A DNA stretch of 64,000 bases from Spirochaetota bacterium (lineage in GTDB: Bacteria > Spirochaetota > Brachyspiria > Brachyspirales > JACRPF01). Where the stretch lies: contig JBBTBY010000054.1 in NCBI GenBank assembly GCA_038043445.1, positions 1 to 64,000 on the forward strand, written 5' to 3'. Position 1 is the stretch's first letter, and the number at the start of each line of letters is the position of its first letter. A program made the translations under genes and the position numbers. The notes beneath the pieces are model-generated. The model was not told the origin of the DNA and did not search any database. It was given only the letters and a program-made list of their open reading frames with translations. Shown here one piece after another: positions 1 through 31,428 of this stretch.

Positions 1-3000
1 AATTCCTCAAAACGGCCGCTGTCGATCAATGCTCCTGCGCATGAATGCGGCTGATCGGTGAAATTCGAGAGTACTTCGTCGAAGCGGCCGAGATTACGGG
101 CCGCCACGGACATATAGTAGCGATTGCCGAATGAATTCGTGAGCACTTCGTCGTACATTCCCATGCGAATTTGGGAGGCGAGGTAACTCACCTCTATCTC
201 GGGATATTGAGAGATGACCAGATCATAACGGCCGAGCGCGGAGAGCTTGCTGGCCGAGTATTGCAGGAATGAGCTGTTGGTGAGTGAAAACCCGAACACC
301 CGAGCCCATCGATGCATGCTCTCACGTCCGGCGGTGATGAGCGAGAGGAGCTCATTCGTCCCCCCTGAAATTCTTAATTGTTCGCCATACAGCACATCCC
401 CGATGCCTGTTATTGCGGTGAGTTTCCGATTCCAATAGGCATCGAGCGAGAAAAGCGCCGTCTGCGCAACGGTTTTGTCAGACGAATATTGCTCAGCTAA
501 CTTTTTGAACAGCGCATCGGCTCCCGTAGTGTCATCCACATCAAGACATATCTTCGCTCGTTCGATTTGAGCGTACGGTACAAGGACCTTCGAACGCCCC
601 TGCTTGACTATGTCCTCAAAGTACTTGTCGGCTTTCTTCGCATCACCCAGCCGAATGCAGATGCGTGCCGCTTTGAACAAGGCGTTCGCAATGAACGGTT
701 CACGCGGGTAGACATCAATGAGCTCGGTATATCGTGTGAGGGCATTCGAATAATCGCCGAGCGCATAAAGCGAATTCGCCACCGCCATCGGCGATATCTT
801 CCTCGCCGGCGGCTGATCATAGACGCGTACATTATCGATAGCGAGTATGTTCATGTTATTGTTCTCGAATCCGAACTGCCGGTGCTCATCTCCCGTGAGC
901 ATATCGTAATCGACAATATCGATGCATTTCTTCCCGTCGACAAAGAAACGAATATGTTCGCCCTCTTTTTCCATGCGGAATCGGTACGTCCTATTCGTTA
1001 CCAGTTTTGCCGGCAGGTAGGCATAGGCGATCTTGTCAATATTTTTGCCCTTTGTCATGGTAATAATATTGGCAAAACCCCAACCGCCCACATGGAACAT
1101 ATACGCATCGCGACGCGTCCTTCCGGCGATATAGGCATTGTAATCATTGTTCCGGAACAACCCGCGGACATCCCATTCGACACGCATGTCACCATGGAAT
1201 AGATGACGGAACGTAAGATTGTCGAAACGGATCTTGTTCGATCCGACGATACTGTTCGAGATGATGTGCCAATGTGTTGTATCCCCGAATGGGATAACTT
1301 CGGTAGTACTGTAATCAGATAAAAAATACGCCGTCCAATTGTTCGATAACTGCGATGTCGGGTATGAGAAATCATCCGTGTAGATAAGCCGCCAGGTGAC
1401 CGCTTCCTTCAAGCGTTCGCCGTAGAAAAAGAAAAGCGAAATGAACGCAAGCAGAACGGCGGCCGCGGAAGGAATGACTATCTTCCTGTGCTTCTGCACT
1501 TTCTTCGAGAGCACATACATGATGCTCGGCGGCCGCGCATGTATCGGCTCGTTCGCACGGTAGCGTGCTATATCCGCGCGGAATTCATTCACGTCCTGGT
1601 AGCGCCGTTCCGGCTCTTTCTCCAATGCCTTGAGCACTATCGTCTCAAGGTCTTTCGATATCCTGCCGTTCCACGTATGCGGAGCGATGACGTTCTTGTC
1701 GCGTATCGCCTCGACATCGGAGAGGAGATTGCCGCTCGATACGAACCACTTTTGCCCCGTAAGCATATAATATAGGATCGCACCGAGCGAGAAGATATCC
1801 GACCGTTCGTCGGCCTTTTTCGAGAGCGTTGCCTGCTCCGGCGCCATGAAATCGATGGTGCCCACCACCTGCTGCGTAACGGTGAGATCACCCTCGCTCT
1901 GTTCAAATCGCGCAAGCCCGAAATCCATGACGACAGGATCGCCGTTCCTTTTTATCATCACGTTCCCGGGCTTCAGATCGCGGTGAATGATTCCTTTTTC
2001 ATGCGCACAGGCAACACCTGCGAGTACGCCGTCAAAAAGTGCGAGCGCATGCGATTCGGATAGACCATGGACAGCTTTTACGCTCACCCCTCCCCCTCTC
2101 TCACTTCCCTGTGAGAGAGGGGGAGGGGCCGGGGGTGGGGGTGGGGGTGAGTGTCTTTTCGCCGCCACGCCCGCTTCCGCTATCGAAACAAGTTCATTGA
2201 TCGTATTGTCTTTCGTCGATACGCCGGATGCGGACATGAGGTCACCGAGCGTCACGCCGGGGAGCAGTTCCATCGCGATATAGCTTATGCCTTCGTACTG
2301 TCCCACATCCATGACGCGGCAGAGGTTGCGGTGATCGAGCATCTTCATCACTTCCGCCTCTCGCATGAAGCGGAGCAATTGCTCCGGAGTCGCGCCTTCG
2401 CCGGCGAGGAGCATTTTCACCGCGACATCGTTGCCGAAGTTGTCACGCGCACGATATACCTGCGCCATGCCGCCTTTGCCGAGGAGGCCGAACAGCCGAT
2501 AGCGGCCGAACACTTTTTCCTTCTCTCCGGTGTCCGTCGCGTCCGAGAGTATCGTCTTCGAGAGATCCCCCGCGGTGAACGCAAGCGCCTTCTCGTCCTC
2601 AATGCCGGACACTTCAATGACCGGGAGCGGCTCGTCGACGCCTTTCACTTTTATGGAATAGAGATAGGTGAATTTATACAGGGGGTTATCTTTCGGGCCG
2701 ACGCTCACGACAACGCCGCGCAGTTCTTCCGGCAGTTCAAAAATGCCTTCGGTTTTGCCGTGGAGGGGAACCCCTAACCCCCCAGCCCCCTTTCCCCTTT
2801 GTAAAGGGAAAGGGGGAGCGCTCCCTTCCCCTTCTTTGAGGGGGAAGGGCTGGGGTTGGGGGTTCTCTTTTTTCGATTCCCACCCTTCCGGCAGATTCTC
2901 CAGTATCTCCTTAAGCGTCGCCGGCGTGCAAATGACCTGCCCGCTCTGCGCAGCACCGCACAAACGCGCCGCGATGTTCACGCTCGAGCCGAGCACGGTA

Positions 3001-3764
3001 TAATTCATCCGAGTTTCGCTGCCGATATTCCCGACCACCATCTCTCCCGTATTGACGCCGATGCCGCATTCGGGCATCACTTTACCCTGCCTGCGGTATT
3101 CTTCCTGAAGTTTTCGGAGATTCATTTTCTGATCGAGCGCGGTCTTCACCGCACGCAACGCATGATCCTTGTAATGACGCGGTGCGCCGAACAAAGCCAT
3201 TACTTCATCGCCGACAATTTTATCGATGGTGCCGTTGTTGTCCTCCACCGCTTTCATCACCGCTTCGAGATATGCGTTTATCGTTTCGCGCACTTCCTCG
3301 GGGCGCATCTTCTCGCTCATGGCGGTGAACCCGCGGAGGTCGGTGAACGATACCGACATGAATCGCCTTTCGGGTATGGCGAACGTGGACTTCTCGTCAT
3401 CGGTGAGATCGTCCATGCCTTTGAGGATATATCTGCCGACATAGGCGCGAAGCTGCTCAAGCTCGGTCTTCTCGGTCATCGTTATATCAGCGCCGCCGCC
3501 GACCCCTACCGCCTTTATCTCGAATGTTCGGCCGGCGCTGTTCGTTCCGGAGAACTGTTTCTTTTCCTTCGGTCCCGGGAGTTCTACGTTTTTGAATATC
3601 TCACCGCCAGGAAGGCGTACTATCGACTCGAACGCAGCGCCGATCACCTGCTCTTTGGGAATGCCGACGAATTTTATGAACGCATTGTTGCAGTAATCGA
3701 CGAAGCCCTCGCGGCTGACGTGGAGCATCATCGTGTTGACAACGAATGATATCTCTTCCGGCAC
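1..3764 (-). CDS. Class III nucleotide cyclase / Ser-Thr kinase / TPR fusion protein (C-terminus off the left edge)
   Basis: Open on the minus strand from GTG at 3764 to the window edge, about 1254 codons. A short PAS-like N-terminus is followed by a class III cyclase domain (about residues 130-290) with FTDLRGF, DKIVGDEV and NIAAR, giving both metal Asp, the Lys and Asn-x3-Arg; Thr in YTVLG at the purine-specifying position fits adenylate cyclase. A Hanks-type kinase follows (about 425-700) with GKGGMAQVYRARD, VAVKM, HRDLKPGN, DFGLA and APE, then one membrane helix (about 758-780), a LamG-like beta-sandwich with LAIDNVRVYD, and TPR-like helices. An upstream in-frame TGA at 3798-3800 limits the start; the GGGGG before GTG 3764 suits a ribosome site. 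Two GC-rich repeats are inserted in frame. Probable membrane-anchored signalling protein coupling cAMP synthesis and phosphorylation; ligands and substrates unknown. Confidence 0.88.
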   Translation of the reverse strand, partial: MPEEISFVVNTMMLHVSREGFVDYCNNAFIKFVGIPKEQVIGAAFESIVRLPGGEIFKNVELPGPKEKKQFSGTNSAGRTFEIKAVGVGGGADITMTEKTELEQLRAYVGRYILKGMDDLTDDEKSTFAIPERRFMSVSFTDLRGFTAMSEKMRPEEVRETINAYLEAVMKAVEDNNGTIDKIVGDEVMALFGAPRHYKDHALRAVKTALDQKMNLRKLQEEYRRQGKVMPECGIGVNTGEMVVGNIGSETRMNYTVLGSSVNIAARLCGAAQSGQVICTPATLKEILENLPEGWESKKENPQPQPFPLKEGEGSAPPFPLQRGKGAGGLGVPLHGKTEGIFELPEELRGVVVSVGPKDNPLYKFTYLYSIKVKGVDEPLPVIEVSGIEDEKALAFTAGDLSKTILSDATDTGEKEKVFGRYRLFGLLGKGGMAQVYRARDNFGNDVAVKMLLAGEGATPEQLLRFMREAEVMKMLDHRNLCRVMDVGQYEGISYIAMELLPGVTLGDLMSASGVSTKDNTINELVSIAEAGVAAKRHSPPPPPPAPPPLSQGSERGGGVSVKAVHGLSESHALALFDGVLAGVACAHEKGIIHRDLKPGNVMIKRNGDPVVMDFGLARFEQSEGDLTVTQQVVGTIDFMAPEQATLSKKADERSDIFSLGAILYYMLTGQKWFVSSGNLLSDVEAIRDKNVIAPHTWNGRISKDLETIVLKALEKEPERRYQDVNEFRADIARYRANEPIHARPPSIMYVLSKKVQKHRKIVIPSAAAVLLAFISLFFFYGERLKEAVTWRLIYTDDFSYPTSQLSNNWTAYFLSDYSTTEVIPFGDTTHWHIISNSIVGSNKIRFDNLTFRHLFHGDMRVEWDVRGLFRNNDYNAYIAGRTRRDAYMFHVGGWGFANIITMTKGKNIDKIAYAYLPAKLVTNRTYRFRMEKEGEHIRFFVDGKKCIDIVDYDMLTGDEHRQFGFENNNMNILAIDNVRVYDQPPARKISPMAVANSLYALGDYSNALTRYTELIDVYPREPFIANALFKAARICIRLGDAKKADKYFEDIVKQGRSKVLVPYAQIERAKICLDVDDTTGADALFKKLAEQYSSDKTVAQTALFSLDAYWNRKLTAITGIGDVLYGEQLRISGGTNELLSLITAGRESMHRWARVFGFSLTNSSFLQYSASKLSALGRYDLVISQYPEIEVSYLASQIRMGMYDEVLTNSFGNRYYMSVAARNLGRFDEVLSNFTDQPHSCAGALIDSGRFEE
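2085..2152. repeat. GC-rich hairpin repeat inserted in frame in the kinase domain
   Basis: The core is CCCCTCTCTCACTTCCCTGT followed by GAGAGAGGGG, an almost perfect hairpin, then a run of GGGGGTG units ending in GTGAGTGTC. The same hairpin core recurs at about 31094-31125 in intergenic DNA. Here it is read through on the minus strand without a stop and adds a Pro/Gly-rich loop (SPPPPPPAPPPLSQGSERGG) between the kinase hinge region and the helix preceding HRDLKPGN. Confidence 0.8.
2768..2868. repeat. Tandem GC-rich hairpin repeat inserted in frame between cyclase and kinase domains
   Basis: Two back-to-back units: AACCCCTAACCCCCCAGCCC with a CTTTCCCCTTT/AAAGGGAAAGGG stem, then CCCTTCCCCTTCTTTGAGGG reading back to GGGGTTGGGGGTTC. 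The same sequence, in inverse orientation, lies at 31318-31370, and relatives border the element at 15583-15782. It is translated on the minus strand as a Pro/Gly/Lys-rich linker just after the cyclase domain, without breaking the frame. Confidence 0.8.
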
Positions 3765-3862
3765 GAAACGCCCCCGAATACATGTCCTTGTATATGGTCA
3801 CGGACGACATGGTCGTCTTTCAGTGAGGACAGTATATCTGCTTCGAGGGCAACGTCAAGAGA

Positions 3863-15582: not shown

Positions 15583-15782
15583 ACCCCTATCCCCGACCCT
15601 TTTCCCTTTATAAGGGGAAAGGGAGTAAAATTGAATGCAACTGAATTCAAAAATTATTTATTCATTCCGCAAAATATTTTCTCCTCGGCAACAAGCGCTC
15701 CCCTTTCTCCTCTCAGACGTGCGCCTTTGGCGCAGCTGGCGGCAAAGCCGCCACGGGTGGAAAGGGGCTGGGGGATAGGGGT
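15583..15782. repeat. MITE-like element with inverted ends
   Basis: Left end ACCCCTATCCCC (15583-15594), right end GGGGATAGGGGT (15771-15782), which is its exact reverse complement. Internal hairpins include CCCTTTATAAGGGG near the left end and GGCGGCAAAGCCGCC near the right. No coding frame is evident inside. Related GC-rich units occur at 2768-2868 and 31318-31370. The right end supplies AGGGG about eight bases before the ATG at 15789, so the element may provide the ribosome site of the next gene. Confidence 0.65.
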
Positions 15783-19387: not shown

Positions 19388-22263
19388 TCACTCCCTGGCG
19401 ATGAAAAACAGCTGTACGGAATCTTTTTCACTGCCGCTGAAGTGTATCGTCATGCCCCCGCTTTCGATCGGGACCGGTGTTCCGATCATCGTCTGCGCAT
19501 GTGCACCGGCAAAGAGGGGTGATGAGATGCTCGCGGCAGAGTTTCCCTCCGTATAACGTGCGATGAGCATGAGCATTCTTTTGCCGCGCGTCCACAACGC
19601 TGTTTCTACCCCATCAGGTGCGATCACATTTGTTCCCTCACGAAGTATCCCATCGGTCAAAATATCCTCATACGGGCGCAGCGACCGAATGACCTCGTTC
19701 ATCACCTGATATTCACGCGCATCCACACCGCGTGCGCTCCAGAATATCACCCCGCGCGCTCCGGAGAGGAATGCGACAGCAAGTCGATTCCTCAGATCCT
19801 CAGGGGTGCGTTCGAACGTTACCGTTCCGCCGCCGCATGTCATCCAGGGGATCATTGGAATGCCTTCCGGCATCGCTTTGTATATCTTCCGCAATTCCTG
19901 TCCGAGCGCATCGGTCGGGATATGATACAGCGTCGGATTGGCGAACGCGGCAATATTCGAGCGGGAGAGCGGCATGAACGGCGTCCTGTTCCCGAAATCC
20001 GGTTTGCCGCCGGGGGCAACACCGTACCATCCGAGCCGTGTCGCGGGGGCTTGCGACTTGAAGCGTGCCCAAAGCGATACATAGAACTCATCCCAGAAAC
20101 CCTGATAGGCTGCTTTGGCAGCATCATCAGCGGATGGTAATTCAGTTGATGCCCGAAAGGTGATGTTCCTTTGTCCGCAGTATGTTTTCCATGCCGCTTC
20201 GCATACCGAGCATGAACAGATATCGCCGCCCCAGCTGGGTTCGGAATCGAGGAAGAGAAAGTCAAGCTTTGCTTCTGCAGCGACACGGACACTGTTGAGG
20301 TCCTGGTTCTCCGCATCCGCAAGGTATTCGTCGCGGTATACGCGCGGACATCCTACCGCGCTCGGCTTTCCGTTCGCCAGATACAATGCCTTGCGCCCGT
20401 TCTTTACCGTGTTTATCTGCACGTTGCAGTACGGGCTGTAATTGCCGCCCACGACAAGCCCGGCATTCCGGGCAGCGTCAAGCATGTTCGTCACCGCAAG
20501 GTCGGTTCTTTTCCAGAGACGGTAATAGTAGTCATTGCCGGATAATGGGGTGAAAAGATTCAATCCGATGCGCCGGTAATTATTGACGACATCGGGCCAT
20601 CGCTGCCAGAAAGCAAAATCGACGAATGATGATGACAGTAAAAGGTCTTTGAACGGTTCAACAGCGGGTATCGATATCGTTTCAACAATAAGCCGCTGTT
20701 CGGTGCCTGCGCGCAAAGATGATGCGCCGCCGACGATGCGGATATCGGAAACGGTCCCGGGAGCAGATGTCGACACGAGAAACACTTCCTCCGCATTCTT
20801 CACTTCGACCGGAGTGATGCGACGGCCGTTCTCGACTATCGCATCGTTCGTCCGTGCGTACGGGGCAACGATCGCTATACCCTCCGGAAGATAGAAGAGC
20901 AGATGCTGCCCGCCTTTCTTCTCCTCGTTCAATACGAGAGGGGTCAGCACTTCGCGGGCGATGTATGCACGCGGCTGCCGGTAGAACGGGGTGATATCCG
21001 GTGATGTGTATGCGATCCTTTGGTCCGCGGCGGATATGCCGTTCGTCCCCGCGTACACGCAGATCTCATCAAGATATAACGTGGATGCGATAAGTGATAC
21101 GGTGAGGAATCTGCCTTTGCCGCGAAGACCGCTGAGCGTGATCCAGCCGTGAGGGTTATTGTCCTGCATGCCGATGCTGTCGCGCATGCGCCACTGGGAT
21201 AATGCCTGTGCCTTGTTGAGTTCACCGATGAGACGGAATTCATTTGTTGTGTTGCCGATGAACACCCTGCATAAGGCGGGCACACGTATTCCCGATGCCT
21301 CGCTCGAGAGATGCACGGCGACCGTGTCAACCGGCATGTTCCCGTCGAGATCGATGGAGATATTGACATAGCGTGCCTCCTGCCACCAGCCGACGGTACG
21401 CGGGTCCCACCAGCACCGCTCGGCGAGCTCTCCGTCGGTGAGCTGTACCGCGTCGTTCGCATCGCGGCACATCGGATTTCCCTGATAGCCGTCCTTGAAC
21501 GCGTCAGGTGCGATGTTCCATGTGTACGAACGACCGAACGCGATATTTTTCTCGCCGCGGCCGCTTTCCGCCATGTTGTTGTACAAGCTGAGATCATCGA
21601 TAAAAAGATCAACCGTCTCTCCGGAAGGCGGATCATTGACAAGCACGGCATATCCCGTCACAACGGCGGTGTCGGGGTCGCATTTCATTTCCCGGCATGA
21701 CTTCAGCGCTTCGCCATACAGCGAGACGCTGATGGCATACCAGTCCTCTTTTGACTGCTTTGCGAGACCGCCGAATACCGCGTAGCCGCCGGGCCGAAGT
21801 TCGAATTCTTTTGTCGTATCGCTTGCGAGGAGTTTCGCGCGCAGGCGCGGTGCTATTTTTACCAGCATTTTTTCATTACCGGAACGCCTGAGGAAACCGC
21901 CGAACTTCATACCAGGCTCAATCGCCATGTCGGCGGGGAAGCGCTCGTAAAAATAGACGAATGTGGATGCGCCGTTGTTCCGGAACGACAGGCGGAGCGC
22001 CTTTTTCCCTTCGAAATAATTTACGGAAGACAGGCCTTTATAGATGATCGATATTCCGGGGTCGCCGAATTTTTTTCGGCGGTAATCTCACCGGCGCAGT
22101 TGGCGCTTGCGTACGCGGGGCCGTAGGCGAAAGAGTTCAGCGATCCCTCATTTTCGAAATTATTCTGCCAATAAGTTTTTGATGCCTCAACGGACAGAGA
22201 GCAGCAAAGAATGACGGCAACGAGACTAAGCGTTCTTTGTGTGCCTGCTGATAGTGTGAACAT
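19388..22263 (-). CDS. Secreted glycoside-hydrolase-like protein, reading frame broken at an A7 run
   Basis: The start ATG at 22263 follows AGGAGA and encodes a signal peptide (MFTLSAGTQRTLSLVAVILC). That frame reads to about 22077 and ends at 22021, while the rest of the protein (846 residues from ATG 21928, and open upstream to 22088) is in another frame. The two frames join at seven A residues (22070-22076 on the complement); a -1 slip there gives GEITAEKKFGDPGIS and restores the whole. The mature protein has a beta-sandwich with F5/8-like LTDGELAERCWWDPRTVGWW, then a barrel-like region with LDSEPSWGGDICSCSVCEAAW, where Glu is a candidate catalytic acid. Family not recognised. It is cause for either slippage, mutation or sequencing error. 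Confidence 0.72.
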
Positions 22264-31089: not shown

Positions 31090-31428
31090 CAGGTATGTTC
31101 TCCCCTCTCTCACTTCCCTGTGAGAGAGGGGAGCGGCATATACGCCTTCTCCTGCGCAACGCAATAATAGCCGAGGGGTGAGTGTTTGTCTTCGCGACGA
31201 AAAATAGAATATCAGCCTGATGCTTTTGTATGAAATGCATCACGAGCCCCGTGATATGTTTTTCTTAAACCCCTATTCCCGTCAAAATATTTTTTCTCAC
31301 TCCAAGTATTTTATCAGCCTCCCCTTTCCCCTTTTGAAGGGGAAAGGGGCTGGGGGTTAGGGGTTATTTCGGAGCGGCGTATATGTTCCCACCTGCACGA
31401 CATAATAAATGCCGAGGGGTGAGTGTCC
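31090..31428. repeat. Cluster of GC-rich hairpin repeats
   Basis: No gene in the 395 bases between 31036 and 31430. It holds the CCCCTCTCTCACTTCCCTGT hairpin (about 31094-31125), the CCCCTTTCCCCTTTTGAAGG hairpin running into GGGGTTAGGGG (31318-31370), and a diverged direct repeat: GGAGCGGCATATAC...CCGAGGGGTGAGTGT at about 31132-31187 and GGAGCGGCGTATAT...CCGAGGGGTGAGTGT at about 31374-31428. The same pieces occur inside the kinase gene. Confidence 0.7.

Follow-up and report, generated by a model that had tools for sequence, protein, structure and literature searches.

Palindromic repeats in frame in a spirochaete cyclase-kinase gene are probable non-autonomous copies of a triplex-type repeat family with DUF559 as candidate mobiliser

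Introduction

Two palindromic repeats lie within the codons of a signalling kinase gene in the DNA studied here, which raises the question of how they came to be there and what spreads repeats of this kind. The window, meaning the whole 64,000-nucleotide stretch that was analyzed, is contig C54 of a Spirochaetota draft genome (5.13 Mb, 178 contigs, 97% complete). Palindromes placed in frame at tolerated positions of protein genes are known from Rickettsia (Rickettsia palindromic elements, RPEs; PMC2229807), and a first-pass annotation of the window had proposed a comparable repeat family tolerated in coding sequence. Another class of dispersed palindrome is the intrastrand triplex motif (TM), formerly known as the BoxC and PIT elements and the subject of a paper by Holder et al. 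2015 (PMC4666352). By 2015 the motif was present in more than 260 genomes, an oligonucleotide of the E. coli motif forms a triplex in vitro, and motif sites vary strongly between E. coli strains, their spread being left unexplained (PMC4666352). The text of that paper contains no mention of an endonuclease.

Results

Two triplex-type elements lie in frame in a cyclase-kinase gene

Both repeats were found inside one long open frame that encodes a cyclase-kinase-TPR protein (Table 1). The frame extends past window position 1 and is open at that edge, and its start is probably the GTG at 3762-3764. In the protein the cyclase domain occupies residues 147-300 and the kinase domain residues 439-733 (a profile match in two pieces), and TPR repeats are also present. 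The repeat units first placed at 2085-2152 and 2768-2868 are indeed there, with limits now refined from their terminal inverted motifs. As had been claimed, the frame passes through both without a stop, and since both lengths are also divisible by three the protein persists with both inserts.

Insert A is bounded by ACGCTCACCCC...GGGGTGAGTGT and contributes ..HSPPPPPPAPPPLSQGSERGGGVSV to the protein. It keeps both end motifs, ACACTCACCCC / GGGGTGAGCGT; on the coding strand CACTCACCCC comes first, followed by the hairpin CCCCTCCCCCTCTCTCAC..GTGAGAGAGGGGGAGGGG, with GGGGTGAGCGT last. It occupies the kinase loop between helices aD and aE; the position ahead of HRDLKPGN is that given in the first-pass annotation, and the kinase domain retains its K, HRD, DFG and APE motifs despite the insertion. 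Insert B is bounded by AACCCCTAACC...GGGGGTT, its two inverted hairpins are joined by AGCGCT, and its translated stretch is NPQPQPFPLKEGEGSAPPFPLQRGKGAGGLGV. It lies in a loop near the end of the cyclase domain.

Table 1. Positions of the host gene, its domains and the palindromic elements in the window
Feature	Position	Strand	Remarks
Cyclase-kinase-TPR host gene	3..3797	-	1265-codon open frame, both inserts inside
Protein kinase domain of host gene	1599..2483	-	PF00069; interrupted by insert A
Insert A, triplex-type palindromic element	2080..2154	-	75 bp = 25 codons; limits from terminal inverted motifs
Insert B, two triplex-type hairpins, inverted	2769..2864	-	96 bp = 32 codons; limits from terminal inverted motifs
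Class III adenylate/guanylate cyclase domain of host gene	2898..3359	-	PF00211
Type B inverted pair	15584..15781	.	~100 bp between hairpins; right hairpin broken by nested palindrome
Type A intergenic hairpin	31102..31131	+	30 nt at 100% identity to insert A core; no third block
Type B intergenic solo element	31321..31365	+	third block GGGGCTGGGGGTTAGGGGTT

The elements of the window have the design of triplex repeats, in which the stem arms are accompanied by a third block, the mirror of one arm. A three-block triplex detector run over the 64 kb found only 2087-2128, 2786-2849, 15597-15623 and 31320-31350, and it found no motif in the shuffled window. The window copies do not match the exact E. 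coli consensus CCCTCNCCCN3-6GGGNGAGGGN3GGGNGAGGG; their arms are CCCCTTCCCCTCTCTCAC and CCCCTTTCCCC, and what they have in common with the E. coli motif is the general design, not the subtype. No Rfam family matched within the window. In the type A consensus four of the six frames are free of stops, which means that in-frame tolerance requires no special design.

The elements are dispersed through the genome

BLAST of both elements against the genome returned many further copies, in about 43 places for insert A and about 30 for insert B. The relatives reported between genes at 31094-31125 and 31318-31370 are intergenic as stated and were found at 31102-31131 and 31321-31365. Genomic copies occur singly, as ends, or paired in inverted orientation. 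Only six of the roughly 70 places are within real coding sequence. Three paralogous cyclase-kinases account for all six, with two apiece, and many of the remaining copies are intergenic. One copy (C81) sits immediately ahead of a penicillin-binding-protein-like gene. Copies that cross open frames on C41, C13, C88, C21 and C31 were rejected as coding cases, being in shadow frames or intergenic.

Two side observations concern the surroundings of these copies. Each of the two intergenic palindromes in Table 1 is followed by one of a pair of 56-nt direct repeats (31130-31185 and 31371-31426, 77% alike), which terminate in GGGGTGAGTGT, the outer end motif of the elements; they are probably leftovers of two-ended units. 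Extra palindromes, for example GACGTGCGCCTTTGGCGCAGCTGGCGGCAAAGCCGCCACGGGTGG, are also nested at the hairpin loop of unrelated copies, as seen at window positions 15717-15760, inside insert B of locus L090, in the flanks of L134 and in insert A of L091. The one in the right hairpin of the 15584-15781 pair recurs in the kinase paralogue on C124. These nested palindromes make up a further layer of repeats, one that targets the hairpin loop or takes its place.

Three kinase paralogues carry elements in the same two loops

The comparison genomes were one other from the same family, 29 from the same order and the remainder of Spirochaetota. A search for orthologues of the kinase gene in relatives turned up only domain homologues in 60 genomes, and paralogues and domain homologues were used in their place. 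Both loops are missing from these homologues, which are not strict orthologues, in other Spirochaetota (29/29 for the cyclase domain, 7/7 for the kinase domain).

The insert-bearing paralogues are those on C54 (the window), C99 and C124, and the same two loops are occupied in each. The kinase-domain site holds a type A element in all three, in identical orientation and frame. The cyclase-domain site holds a B dimer in C54 and C124, the only two places with a dimer of exactly that kind, and a type A element in C99. At least one site in these genes has swapped element type. Between C54 and C124, four-fold sites are identical at 27 of 30 positions in the inserts vs 102 of 186 in the rest of the gene (p 1e-4). 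Because the inserts are thus more alike than the host DNA around them, they either postdate the gene duplication or were homogenized afterwards. A different history, which we hold to be somewhat less probable, is that the elements were already in the ancestor of the three paralogues and that gene conversion or element exchange mimics youth. The two sites shared by all three genes and the confinement of that exact B dimer to C54 and C124 suit such an ancestral insertion. The four-fold agreement and the type A element at site B of C99 speak against it; a fresh insertion later than the duplication would account for these as well. An ancestral insertion concerns the kinase genes only and agrees with the explanation of the elements given below. 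The inserts are best seen as tolerated passengers in two loops where insertion, conversion or exchange took place once the gene had duplicated, and they presumably add nothing essential to the kinase.

Two further kinase sequences were noticed. The C124 paralogue (L090, just above position 21965 of G000:C124) has a single in-frame TAG within the kinase domain (..FSLGAVL*LLITGEKW..) and is a young pseudogene or contains a sequence error. A short frame at G000:C22:41788-42093 (L092) resembles the kinase at 84% over its N-terminal 112 residues, then diverges and reaches a stop, and is an additional, truncated kinase copy.

A DUF559 gene lies between inverted copies of the repeat

A RAYT or IS200-type mobilizer was ruled out, as a search for the RAYT transposase domain (Y1_Tnp, PF01797) gave zero matches in the genome. 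A search with PF04480 (DUF559) gave six loci with matches above the cut-off, and all six are flanked on both sides by hairpins with the ACACTCACCCC motifs outward. The strict triplex detector found motifs on both sides at two of the six, and at five when a motif on one side was enough; the locus scored negative is L134, where the hairpins are split by nested palindromes. Four of the five full-length DUF559 copies fall in one clade with 99/98 support, which indicates recent amplification. The fifth groups with the copy from a related genus (G001), whose single DUF559 gene has CTCACTCACCCCC ends on both sides. Four copies without a gene (C3, C40, C45 and C47) carry the left-end sequence of the DUF559 units of this genome, as expected of deletion derivatives of such a unit. 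At the 3' ends of the DUF559 genes of L132, L133, L131 and L134 the frame enters the right-hand palindrome, so that the repeat supplies the codons for the C-terminal tail SPLPLSHFPVREGKGLGDGVSV.

DUF559 has invariant E, D, ExDG and H columns, which are predicted catalytic residues. Two PDB entries are matched by the profile, 3HRL and 3R3P; the latter is a mobile-intron endonuclease, which we take to be I-Bth0305I. By sequence, DUF559 is a Vsr-like nuclease of the PD-(D/E)XK / EDxHD type and a relative of the homing endonuclease I-Bth0305I. Earlier work put YcjD, the E. coli member, close to Vsr within the PD-(D/E)XK superfamily (PMC1189080), and DUF559 has been classed among the EDxHD homing endonucleases (PMC9403480). 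A DUF559 protein of Caulobacter, VsrA, is described as provoking a DNA damage response when a methylase is missing (PMC12907096). Literature linking DUF559 to palindromic repeats was not found in a search of mainly open-access sources.

Triplex motifs flank DUF559 genes in Spirochaetota and other phyla

DUF559 is present in 67 of 247 Spirochaetota genomes, and most of 30 Spirochaetota loci have C-rich inverted palindromes around the gene. At the 24 loci from other Spirochaetota the strict detector found motifs on both sides at 10 and on at least one side at 17. Fifteen Spirochaetota genomes are rich in CCCTCCC-N3-9-GGGAGGG palindromes, and DUF559 occurs in 12 of these vs 55 of the 232 others (p 1.6e-5). 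Three Spirochaetota genomes (G147, G080 and G152) have 60, 13 and 7 CCCTCCC..GGGAGGG palindromes and no detected DUF559 gene; in these the mobilizer may have been lost, may have diverged, or may be another enzyme.

GTDB genomes were scanned with DUF559 alignment A2, which returned 80 loci from many phyla (alignment A1 was dropped as too divergent). DUF559 genes had inverted repeats, and strong hairpins on either side, far more often than control genes of the same loci. The third block of the flanking hairpins mirrors the arm over 0.81 of the arm length vs 0.51 in shuffled flanks (p 2e-23). Orientation could be judged at 41 loci, and at 32 of them one flank is inverted relative to the other. 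When the strict three-block detector was applied to 78 DUF559 loci, which share ancestry, motifs were found on both sides of 58 and on at least one side of 76. The corresponding numbers were 1/70 and 8/70 for control ORFs, and 0/507 and 17/507 for random segments. The two ends of one DUF559 unit resemble each other, and ends differ between DUF559 lineages. The third strand points outward in this genome and inward in most other DUF559 loci. A single query for DUF559 in phages found none. On Azospirillum plasmids the DUF559 unit lies at one place in every well-matching strain, with no empty site among them.

The E. coli DUF559 gene is ycjD, and its stop codon lies within a degenerate BoxC-like motif. 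TM no. 9 of Holder et al. follows ycjD within ~200 bp, and E. coli strains have a median of 3 relatives of this motif when ycjD is present vs 2 when it is not (p 2e-6), a difference confounded by phylogroup. At pstB-pstA of K-12 (L265; NC_000913.3, 3908000-3909200) 8-bp direct repeats AACCGTGT enclose a 92-bp segment that holds one BoxC; in other strains (L269, L270) the segment is missing and one repeat remains. The BoxC locus lldD-trmL presents a series of partial deletions among strains. No clean empty site showing an exact target duplication was obtained at either locus, and presence or absence at both can be explained by insertion or by slippage deletion.

Discussion

The data of this study suggest, with good though not full confidence, that the inserts in the kinase belong to a REPIN-like family of triplex repeats, of which they are non-autonomous copies, and that the mobilizer of the family is DUF559, acting on the folded end of the element. 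For RAYT and REP sequences it was reasoned that when a dispersed palindrome always occurs as an inverted pair around one gene, that gene is likely to mobilize it (PMC2817692). The DUF559 gene is placed in this way, and by the same logic it is likely to be the mobilizer of the repeats on its two sides, for which it is the best candidate. The element end, made up of a C-rich mirror block, a stem, a loop and the complementary stem, could fold as a hairpin with a third strand. The autonomous unit would consist of two such ends, inverted relative to each other, and the DUF559 gene that they enclose. DUF559 may recognize the folded end in single-stranded DNA and nick or cut there, after which strand transfer or break repair would place a copy of the whole unit, of a pair of ends or of one end elsewhere in the genome. 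On this model two copies would have landed in loops of the cyclase-kinase in the window with the protein frame preserved.

Several findings cast doubt on DUF559 as the mobilizer. Some palindrome-rich genomes (G147, G080 and G152) have no detected DUF559, and the strict test was two-sided at only 2 of 6 loci of this genome and 10 of 24 from other Spirochaetota. The third strand is outward here, in contrast to its inward direction in most others. Phylogroup confounds the comparison of E. coli strains, the 78 loci have shared ancestry, and a clean empty site with a target duplication was lacking where it was sought.

The main rival explanation is that the motifs are targets, with DUF559 a free-standing homing endonuclease that enters pre-existing motif pairs, and with the motifs themselves spread by replication slippage, gene conversion or another transposase. 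Inverted pairs without a gene do exist, DUF559 is missing from some motif-rich genomes and is related to a homing endonuclease, and REP sequences are targeted by some IS elements (PMC1525189). However, sequence specific to the left end of the unit lies beside the gene-less C3, C40, C45 and C47 copies, like deletion derivatives, and the two ends of a unit are alike yet different between DUF559 lineages. We regard motifs as mere targets as unlikely, though worth keeping in mind.

The view of the first-pass annotation, a lineage-specific, RPE-like family that is generally tolerated in coding sequence and is unconnected to DUF559, is very improbable as a whole. Part of it stands, in that the inserts are in-frame loop copies of a dispersed, intergenic repeat and are absent from homologues. 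General coding tolerance does not, because the coding copies (6 of ~70) are restricted to the three paralogues of one gene family. The same design adjoins DUF559 in many phyla, and triplex design and DUF559 ends go beyond the RPE comparison. It is scarcely credible that the palindromes beside DUF559 merely serve small genes as common terminators or regulatory hairpins, with unrelated dispersal: gene-adjacent hairpins are common and many copies are intergenic, but control genes of the same loci were two-sided in only 1 of 70, and the motifs also lie upstream of the gene, inverted, and within kinase codons.

With these findings a very common and unexplained bacterial repeat gains a candidate enzyme and a testable mechanism, and a role is suggested for a large uncharacterized nuclease family that includes E. 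coli YcjD. We lean slightly towards a broader reading, in which the BoxC/triplex repeats, orphans since the 1990s, are footprints of mobile elements that span phyla, DUF559 reads their triplex-folded end, and the elements are able to insert in frame within genes and to strike identical loops of paralogues more than once. DUF559 would cleave the folded element end, and if it does act on a folded three-strand end, this would be a new mode of transposon-end recognition. The kinase inserts illustrate how such repeats turn into protein sequence, but the in-frame insertion is of less interest than the finding of a candidate enzyme for a repeat that has long been an orphan.

Among known systems, RPEs share with the inserts in-frame insertion in protein genes and absence from homologues (here not strict orthologues). 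They differ in that RPEs are 105-146 bp long and have hit many different genes, and neither a bracketing nuclease gene nor a three-block triplex design has been reported for them. Since the inserts match the TM design, membership in the RPE sequence family seems unlikely. The EDxHD homing endonucleases such as I-Bth0305I, and Vsr/YcjD, have a homologous nuclease core (PMC1189080, PMC9403480), but unlike the homing endonucleases DUF559 lies outside any intron or intein, between repeats rather than inside one conserved gene. The TM, BoxC and PIT elements have the same succession of C-rich mirror block, stem, loop and complementary stem and are likewise dispersed, mainly intergenic, single or in inverted pairs, and variable between strains. 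No mobilizer or nuclease gene has been described for them, whereas here the motifs flank DUF559 and enter codons. The REP/REPIN and RAYT systems (PMC2817692, PMC3116915) also consist of one gene between inverted palindromes and many non-autonomous copies. There the enzyme is a Y1 HUH transposase and here it is DUF559 (PD-(D/E)XK/EDxHD), and in place of a GTAG or CGTC tag the ends found here are ACACTCACCCC or AACCCCTAACCCC. The arrangement in this genome is nevertheless of the REPIN type, a gene between inverted palindromes together with dispersed copies, in which DUF559 replaces RAYT.
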